Shown here: one piece after another, positions 2,263-34,855 of the stretch | Layout: every line of letters starts with the position of its first letter | Position numbering within the stretch: position 1 is the first letter of the stretch | NCBI GenBank assembly: GCA_011524805.1 | Contig: WTJO01000019.1 | Coordinates: forward strand, 1-37,217 | Origin: Alphaproteobacteria bacterium | GTDB taxonomy: Bacteria > Pseudomonadota > Alphaproteobacteria > Puniceispirillales > Puniceispirillaceae | Direction of reading: 5' to 3' | Length of the DNA stretch: 37,217 nucleotides | Position numbers and translations under genes: made by a program | Notes under the pieces: generated by a model | What the model was told of the DNA's origin: nothing | Databases searched by the model: none | The model's input: the letters and a program-made list of their open reading frames with translations, nothing else

Positions 2263-2841
2263 CTATGTGCTCTGCGCACGCTCGGCAAGTGACATGGCCG
2301 GCTGTGCGATCCGCGTCAGCCTGTGATAGCTGAAGGCAGGATGGCTGTCAGAGGCAGGAATAGCCTCTAAAAGCTCATCATGCCACGCCGCATTATCTAT
2401 CTGCGGGAAACGCACCCCGTCATGGCTGGCATCTTCAACAATTGTTGCTTCAATGGCATCACAGCAATCAAGCCCAATCCTGTATATCTCGCCGCCGCCA
2501 AATAAAATAATGCGCCGTTCTGGCACATCTGTCTGGCTATTCTGCTCTTCCAGCCATTGCTCGGCGCGTGCGATTGCAGCCTCAAAGCTAGTGACAGCTA
2601 CAATACCTTCTGCCGAAAAGCCGGCATTTCTGGTAAGTACGATATTCAGCCTGCCCGGAAGCGGCCTGCCAATTGACTGATAGGTCTTGCGTCCCATAAT
2701 CAGCGGACAGCCCATGGTGAGCTGTTTGACACGACGCAGATCACCTGGCAGGTGCCAGATTAAATCTTCGCCATCGCCGATCACATGATTGGTTGCCATT
2801 GCAACAACGCATACCAGCCTGTTTTGAGATATATCAGCCAT
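2263..2841 (-). CDS. folA: Dihydrofolate reductase
   Basis: VCVVAMATNHVIGDGEDLIWHLPGDLRRVKQLTMGCPLIMGRKTYQSIGRPLPGRLNIVLTR; next to thyA. Confidence 0.95.
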   Translation of the reverse strand: MADISQNRLVCVVAMATNHVIGDGEDLIWHLPGDLRRVKQLTMGCPLIMGRKTYQSIGRPLPGRLNIVLTRNAGFSAEGIVAVTSFEAAIARAEQWLEEQNSQTDVPERRIILFGGGEIYRIGLDCCDAIEATIVEDASHDGVRFPQIDNAAWHDELLEAIPASDSHPAFSYHRLTRIAQPAMSLAERAQST

Positions 2842-2846
2842 CAGCT

Positions 2847-3641
2847 TTACACAGCTATCGGCGCAGGGATAGAAGGTTCAGCCTGATAATCCTCAATCGC
2901 TATATGCTCATAGCGGAAATCAAACAGGCTGTCTGGCGGCTGGCGAAATACCAGCTTTGGCAGTGCAGTCGGTGTTCTGGTAAGTTGCAATTTCGCCTGC
3001 TCAAAATGATTATGATATAGATGGGCATCGCCAAGCGTATGCACAAAATCACCTACCTTCAGCCCTGATACATGCGCAATCATGTGGGTAAATAACGCAT
3101 AGGAAGCGATATTAAATGGCACACCCAGAAAGATATCTGCAGAACGCTGATAAAGCTGGCAGGACAATCTGTCTTCTGCGACATAGAACTGGAACAGACA
3201 ATGGCATGGCGGAAGTGCCATATCCCCGACATCCGCAGGGTTCCATGCCGTAATAATATGACGCCGCGAGGCAGGATTATGTTTCAGCCCGTCAAGCAAT
3301 TCTGCCAGCTGGTCAATGGCCTGTCCGTCTGGTTTTTGCCATGACCGCCATTGCCGACCATAGACAGGGCCCAGATCGCCATGTTCATCTGCCCATTCAT
3401 CCCAGATGGATACGCCATGTTCGTTCAGATAGGCGATATTGGTATCACCTTGGATAAACCACAATAATTCATGGATGATTGAACGAATATGCAGCTTTTT
3501 TGTGGTCAGTAACGGAAAGCCTTGCGAGAGATCAAAACGCATCTGGTGACCAAACACAGAACGTGTGCCGGTGCCGGTTCTGTCGCCTCTATCTACGCCC
3601 TGCTCCAGCACATGTGACAGCAATTCAAGATACTGTTTCAT
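2847..3641 (-). CDS. thyA: Thymidylate synthase
   Basis: [62 protein letters not shown]. Confidence 0.98.
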
Positions 3642-3789
3642 TTCCGCTCCTTTGACAGCATGATCGCCTGATATCTTCGACAGACAACCTAGGCAAAAAT
3701 CCAGTGGTCAGCCTGCTTGCACATTACCAAGCCAAGCGGCTAGCGGCAAATGGTTAAATTGGCTGAAACCGGCAGTGTGACAATTTACT

Positions 3790-3817
3790 TTGCCTTAATG
3801 CAAACAGGGCTTATACT
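3790..3817 (+). promoter_or_regulatory. Candidate sigma-70 promoter for ssrA (TTGCCT - 16 nt - TATACT)
   Basis: TTGCCT 3790-3795, TATACT 3812-3817, just upstream of the tmRNA acceptor piece. Confidence 0.5.
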
Positions 3818-3823
3818 AGCCTT

Positions 3824-4183
3824 GTCAGGCTTGTCCTGACTATGGCGATAAACGTGATACGGAATAAGCAGGGCGGACCCGGGGGCGGTACCCGGCGCCT
3901 CCACCAATTCTGGCCGGACTGTGATAGCTATCATCAGAACGGTCTGCGCATATCCAGCATATGGTTTTGGGGGCGAAATAGGATCGACGCATGTAGTAAA
4001 GGTATTATTTTCGCTCGGTATGGTAACCGCCGATATCGGGCCAATGTAGTAGTTGCAAACGACAACACTGCTCCGGTTGCTGTAGCTGCGTAATGCAGGT
4101 AAAGCACCATTTTAAAGTCCCGGCCGCTTGAGCTCGGTCGGGCGGGGTTGGGAAGCGCACCTGGCAACAGAAGCGTTTCCACT
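3824..4183 (+). ncRNA. ssrA: tmRNA, circularly permuted (two-piece) alphaproteobacterial form; acceptor piece ends ...CGCCTCCACCA (3906), coding piece begins GGGGGCGAAATAGGATCGACGC (3969); tag ORF 4055..4093 = ANDNTAPVAVAA*
   Basis: Acceptor stem pairs GGGGGCG (3969-3975) with CGCCTCC (3896-3902) followed by ACCA; T-arm-like CCGGG/CCCGG stem upstream; TAGTAGTTGCAAACGACAAC resume region; tag ends AVAA; final hairpin GGAAGCG/CGTTTCC 4151-4180. Outer ends approximate. Confidence 0.95.
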
Positions 4184-4217
4184 TTATTCATGGCGAGCTG
4201 AAAGGCGCTGGACTGTA

Positions 4218-4805
4218 ATGACTGAAAGCAAAGACGACGATGCGATAAATTATGAGCTTTTGGTCGAAGATTCGCTCCGGACAGTTGTCAGAAGCGCATT
4301 GGCACTAGTTGCCCATGAAGGCCTGCCTGGTGATGCACATTTCTATATCTCGTTCAATACCAGCCATCCAGATGTTGATATCAGCGATTCTCTTCGGAAT
4401 GCCCACAAAGACGAGATGACGATTGTTCTGCAACACCAATTCTGGGATCTGGCTGTTACCGAACATAATTTTAGTGTTGGGCTGTCATTTTCAGGGGTTC
4501 AGCACCGCCTAAAAATACCGTTTTCAGCGATTACGCATTTTACCGACCCGTCTGTCGGATTTGGCCTGCAATTCAGTGGTGCTGAAGATGCAGAAGGCGC
4601 TGATGATGGTTCATCGGACGGAACAGCTGATACCAATACCCCAACCGTGGTAGAGGCTGGCAGTAAGCCGGCATCTGATGATAATGCGGCAGAAAAAAAC
4701 ATAACCGCTCCGGATATCATGGACACTGACACCGCAGACACCACAGATAGTGCCAAGGTTGTATCGCTTGATCATTTCCGGAAAAATTCTGATGCCGAAT
4801 CCTGA
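4218..4805 (+). CDS. sspB: SspB-type ClpXP adaptor/specificity factor (alphaproteobacterial type)
   Basis: MTESKDDDAINYELLVEDSLRTVVRSALALVAHEGLPGDAHFYISFNTSHPDVDIS...MTIVLQHQFWDLAVTEHNFSVGLSFSGVQHRLKIPFSAITHFTDPSVGFGLQF, acidic linker, VVSLDHFRKN tail. The 4128 start in the ORF track overlaps tmRNA; ATG 4218 preferred. Confidence 0.92.
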   Translation: MTESKDDDAINYELLVEDSLRTVVRSALALVAHEGLPGDAHFYISFNTSHPDVDISDSLRNAHKDEMTIVLQHQFWDLAVTEHNFSVGLSFSGVQHRLKIPFSAITHFTDPSVGFGLQFSGAEDAEGADDGSSDGTADTNTPTVVEAGSKPASDDNAAEKNITAPDIMDTDTADTTDSAKVVSLDHFRKNSDAES

Positions 4806-33619: not shown

Positions 33620-34855
33620 ATGCGAGTTTTGGCAGAAATCAGACAGATAGAAAATGCGCCACGAAGCTACCACCGCACCCCCTCTTCTTTGAAAGCTGTT
33701 TTTGCCTCGATTTTAATCTTCCTGATGGGCATGCTCCAGCCTGTCCAAGCGCAAAATAGCATCAGCCTGTCACCTGAATTTACCCTGAATTATGAAAGCG
33801 GGAAGCTAGATTTGAATGGCGGCATTATTGATGTGGTCAATGCAGAACTCATCTCTGGGGGTGAGGTGCTATTCACCGCAGATACGCTCATGGCAGAAGT
33901 TGACGAGAGCAACCCTGAAAATCCAATATTAAAGATGTTGGATATATCCGGGCTATCTGTCGAAGAGGATGCGATAGCTATATCTATTGCCGAAATTTCG
34001 GCTATCAACATGCCGTTAAATTATAATTATCAGCTGTCTGAACAGCCAGAACCAGAAGAGATACTTGCCTATTTTAAGCACCAATCTGATATCAAATACC
34101 GGGTGGCAGAAATTGTGATAGTGTCAAAAGAAGAAGGCATATCCATTACAATTGACGAAATCGTGATTGATGTTGAAACCACCAACCGGCAGGCAGTTGA
34201 CGCCGCCGGTTCTAAAACCAGCTATGCCGTTTCAAACATTGTTATGTCTCCATATGGCAACAGTAATGATGCCAGCGAATACCAAGACGGGCTGGCACAG
34301 GTAGGGATAGATTCCTTAGCGCTTAATCTCAATGGGGTTATTGAATCACTGTATAAGGACAGGCGGCTTGCCATCCGTCTATATCAGGCGTTTGACCTAC
34401 CACAGCTATTCGATATCTCATGGAATCTGGATATGTCTTTTGGCCACAAACTGTTTGAGCTGAATGCCTATCTTGCATCAAACACAGACATTTATGATTT
34501 TGACAATTTTGATTTATCTGATGATGAAGTCAAAGGCCTGTTGCTGGCCAATGCCGGTGAAATTCTGTTACACAGATTTACCGTAAATCTCGAAGATAAA
34601 GGTATTCTGGCCAAAGCCAAGAACCCCGAAATTGTGGCACCATCCGTGGAAAGTGGGCTTGATGGTATGCCAGAGCCGATTGCCAATTTGCTACGCCAGC
34701 CAGTTACAGAATTCATTCATAATGGCGGGCTGCTCGCAGTTGATGCGAACCCGCCAGAACCTGCCAATCTGCTTCAATTAAGCACGATTATGCTAGCCCC
34801 TGAAGTGGCTATCCAGATATTGGGGCTGTCAGTGTATCATCAATTGAAAAGCTAG
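33620..34855 (+). CDS. Uncharacterised exported protein (N-terminal signal/TM segment, no recognised domain)
   Basis: 411 aa ORF 47 nt after clpB; hydrophobic SLKAVFASILIFLMGMLQPVQAQ then an acidic soluble region; no recognised motif. Confidence 0.7.
   Translation: MRVLAEIRQIENAPRSYHRTPSSLKAVFASILIFLMGMLQPVQAQNSISLSPEFTLNYESGKLDLNGGIIDVVNAELISGGEVLFTADTLMAEVDESNPENPILKMLDISGLSVEEDAIAISIAEISAINMPLNYNYQLSEQPEPEEILAYFKHQSDIKYRVAEIVIVSKEEGISITIDEIVIDVETTNRQAVDAAGSKTSYAVSNIVMSPYGNSNDASEYQDGLAQVGIDSLALNLNGVIESLYKDRRLAIRLYQAFDLPQLFDISWNLDMSFGHKLFELNAYLASNTDIYDFDNFDLSDDEVKGLLLANAGEILLHRFTVNLEDKGILAKAKNPEIVAPSVESGLDGMPEPIANLLRQPVTEFIHNGGLLAVDANPPEPANLLQLSTIMLAPEVAIQILGLSVYHQLKS

Follow-up and report, generated by a model that had tools for sequence, protein, structure and literature searches.

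A circularly permuted ssrA gene directly upstream of sspB in a probably SAR116-related alphaproteobacterium

Does the segment at positions 3824-4183 of the window (the whole 37,217-nt stretch of DNA analyzed here) encode a two-piece tmRNA, as proposed in the initial annotation, or one of the proteins whose reading frames overlap it? That annotation had named the Rfam alpha_tmRNA model (RF01849) as its check. The model matches positions 3785-4183 (+) end to end (model positions 1-355 of 355) with 267.3 bits (E 6.8e-77), compared with a gathering score of 50 bits. The match starts before 3824 because the first ~39 positions of RF01849 represent unpaired upstream sequence, including a TATACT-like box. 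A second model, tmRNA_permuted (RF04321), aligns over all 213 of its positions at 3844-4093 (150.1 bits, E 5.6e-30). These E-values, together with compensatory changes in 126 loci (see below), exclude a chance match.

The full-length RF01849 match, with the two halves in swapped order, bears out the proposed identity as a permuted alphaproteobacterial tmRNA. Each feature examined for membership in this family was present: the score, the permutation, the G3-U70 pair with CCA, the tag and an SmpB gene. Only one ssrA copy was found in the source genome, which is rated 97% complete. We put the probability at about 98% that 3824-4183 is the sole ssrA gene of this probably SAR116-related alphaproteobacterium, that it has the standard circularly permuted form, and that its product is processed, charged and functions as its homologues do; these last properties are expected by analogy with the homologues. 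The gene is already known in kind, being an ordinary member of a class described in Alphaproteobacteria (PMC3985003, PMC11915505), as the annotation had stated. The catalogue of permuted tmRNAs holds nearly 12,000 unique sequences (PMC11915505), and a two-piece tmRNA from a permuted gene has been shown to function in Caulobacter (Keiler et al. 2000, as cited in PMC3985003).

Architecture of the two halves

The acceptor piece, i.e., the 3' half of the tRNA-like domain, occupies 3824-3906 (+), based on the Rfam alignments and parsed stems and loops. It contains a T-stem (CCGGG/CCCGG), a T-loop (GGCGGTA), the acceptor strand CGCCTCC, the discriminator A and an encoded CCA, with CGCCTCCACCA ending at 3906 and the half closing as CGCCTCC-A-CCA. 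Its 5' end is predicted from the RNA start near 3824, which agrees with the start given in the initial annotation and with a -10-like TATACT ending at 3817. That hexamer is part of a promoter-like site (TTGCCT, 16 nt, TATACT; 3790-3817, +; 9/12 matches in a consensus scan) that lies within the conserved upstream part of the RF01849 model, and a TATA-like box occurs at about the same place in the family members printed.

The coding piece, or 5' half, spans 3969-4183 (+) according to both Rfam matches and comprises the acceptor strand GGGGGCG, the tRNA-like 5' end, a pseudoknot region, the tag frame and a 3' hairpin. It begins at 3969 with GGGGGCGAAATAGGATCGACGC, which opens with GGGGGCG. The tag frame, ANDNTAPVAVAA-stop by translation, lies at 4055-4093 (+; codons GCA AAC GAC AAC ... 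GCG TAA), with an ANDN start, a hydrophobic AA end and a stop codon; with the tmRNA-borne alanine, the tag is AANDNTAPVAVAA. Tags of relatives in the family have the form ANDN[TS]APV.... The 3'-terminal hairpin (4150-4181, +), identified by folding the single strand, pairs GGAAGCGC ... GCGUUUCC around the conserved ACCUGGCAACAGAA; it is built around ACCTGGCAACAGAA, and its core pairs are kept by two-sided changes in relatives. A single-sequence fold of the whole of 3824-4183 gave a minimum-energy form without the two-piece structure, which is unsurprising when a pseudoknotted RNA is folded in its uncut form.

Between the halves lies a 62-nt segment (3907-3968, +) that tRNA processing enzymes would be expected to remove; the initial annotation had placed the end of the acceptor half, the start of the coding half and this gap exactly. 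It had also described a seven-base acceptor stem, GGGGGCG/CGCCTCC, formed across the spacer, and this stem is complete, with all seven pairs present (six Watson-Crick and one G-U at 3:70). G3·U70 is the pair read by alanyl-tRNA synthetase and confers alanine identity. Spacer length differs among relatives, at 35-78 nt within the family and anywhere from a few nt to several hundred across the class, with conserved flanks; such variability is expected of a segment that is removed. Unusually long spacers were parsed in two loci, L101 of genome G113 (232 nt) and L121 of G149 (115 nt).

Gene order, acceptor stem and an ANDN-type tag ending in AA are the same as in RF01849 and the Caulobacter crescentus ssrA, and the T-loop fits the RF01849 consensus, GGC[A/G]GTA. 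Differences from RF01849 relatives are in details only (the 62-nt spacer and a tag body, TAPVAVAA, that is typical of its own family). Compared with RF04321, which includes alpha, beta and cyanobacterial forms, the tRNA-like domain is the same over the entire model, and only the alpha-specific T-loop and the lengths differ.

Conservation, overlapping frames and annotation

Matches to alpha_tmRNA above the cut-off were obtained in 26/41 genomes of the same family and in 105/115 genomes sampled across the class. At least some of the missing matches among relatives are due to contig breaks: in two genomes without a match (G003 and G019), SspB lies ~245 bases from the start of a contig, and the tmRNA probably falls in the assembly break. 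In addition to its main gene, one class genome (G136) has a second, weaker match (C5:288509-288849, -; 72.8 bits). Of 128 loci, 126 have the acceptor half before the coding half and a fully paired acceptor stem. In these 126 loci every one of the seven acceptor pairs is of a standard type, and pairs 4, 5 and 6 show compensatory changes (e.g., pair 5 is G-C, A-U or C-G, and pair 6 is C-G or U-A), while G3-U70 is invariant (126/126).

The locus was also said to be hidden under an ORF call. This is true insofar as an 83-aa ORF (3842-4093, +) spans the acceptor piece, spacer and tag, ending at the tag stop codon, and a TTG-started extension of the sspB ORF (4128-4805) covers the final 56 bases of ssrA; it fails for longer frames, since no ORF of at least 100 aa covers the acceptor half. 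Both frames are open, so a protein-coding gene could be read here instead of an RNA, but we consider this extremely improbable. The 83-aa frame runs through the CCA end and the spacer as far as the tag stop, and it is the RNA structure that is conserved; with a spacer so variable in length (35-78 nt in the family), the reading frame cannot be. In the TTG-extended ORF, the match to the SspB domain does not start until residue 46, downstream of M31, which corresponds to position 4218. It is unlikely that either the 83-aa frame or the extension is translated as such.

A decayed, non-functional ssrA copy with the working gene elsewhere in the genome would be compatible with the failure of ARAGORN, which at default settings missed the gene at 3824-4183 and reported nothing. 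However, every acceptor pair, every T-stem pair and the tag are intact, and the score is typical of full-length relatives in the family (about 222-288 bits). We give this reading almost no credence, and the sole-copy result in a 97% complete genome rules it out, barring a real gene that falls within an assembly gap.

The intact permuted ssrA is the preferred reading, and its T-loop may account for the default ARAGORN miss. The usual T-loop is TTCRANN, from which GGCGGTA (noted within 3879-3895 of the window) departs. GGCGGTA is nevertheless the consensus of the alpha model and the commonest form among the loci parsed (70/125), which marks it as a trait of the clade rather than as damage. At several settings less lenient than -ps80, ARAGORN again found nothing; with the threshold lowered to -ps80 it made 17 calls, most of them false, and listed the correct tag with a wrong 5' end. 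As an annotation point, this ssrA gene escapes default ARAGORN and is overlain by ORF calls, which makes covariance models the method to use in this clade.

Proposed rescue pathway and the adjacent sspB gene

Judging from the gene order and from the Caulobacter homologue, which has been studied experimentally (Keiler et al. 2000, as cited in PMC3985003), the mature RNA is likely to consist of two pieces, of ~83 nt and ~215 nt. A single transcript from ~3824 to 4183 would carry the acceptor half ahead of the coding half. The 62-nt spacer would then be excised by tRNA processing enzymes, probably through cleavage by RNase P at position 3969 and 3'-end processing at position 3906, leaving two pieces held together by the acceptor stem and other tRNA-like stems. 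Charging by AlaRS through G3-U70 and rescue of stalled ribosomes with SmpB (smpB is encoded elsewhere in the source genome; PF01668, E 2.6e-48) would add AANDNTAPVAVAA to the protein, which would pass to ClpXP with the help of SspB, encoded directly downstream.

SspB is an adaptor that binds tmRNA-tagged proteins and delivers them to ClpXP. The sspB gene (4218-4805, +; Pfam SspB PF04386, E 1.7e-43) is the first gene after ssrA on that strand, starting 34 nt past the tmRNA end; ATG at 4218 is the likely start codon, with GTG at 4215 possible. All 25 full-length family loci have sspB directly downstream of ssrA, including one (L025) that our script labelled 'other' because the Rfam match there extends into the SspB gene. 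Across the class, 69/105 loci have sspB on the same strand no more than 700 bases away and 4 more have it close by; the neighbourhood occurs in about 70% of class loci. Four of the remaining loci end at a contig edge, and 28 of the 32 genomes without the neighbourhood encode SspB elsewhere. Conversely, by motif count, 67 of 80 named SspB loci have a tmRNA 5' half and tag motif.

A scan found no terminator-like site between ssrA and sspB, although the 3' hairpin, which has a long loop and is followed by ACTTTATT, might serve as a weak terminator. The two genes may be co-transcribed. It is conceivable, though we think it rather unlikely, that they form one conserved transcription unit in SAR116 and in most of the other alphaproteobacteria, in which tag and adaptor are co-regulated by read-through past the 3' hairpin. 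The neighbourhood was not found in the literature searched, which probably did not extend to the paper on SspB of Caulobacter by Lessner et al. (2007, as cited in PMC3985003), and we claim no novelty for it; its conservation offers a small testable lead on the balance between tag and adaptor.

Elsewhere in the window, a 411-aa ORF without a Pfam match (33620-34855, +) lies between clpB-like and Hsp90 genes. On the other side of ssrA from sspB, thymidylate synthase and dihydrofolate reductase genes (2263-3641, -) are located upstream of ssrA and divergent from it.
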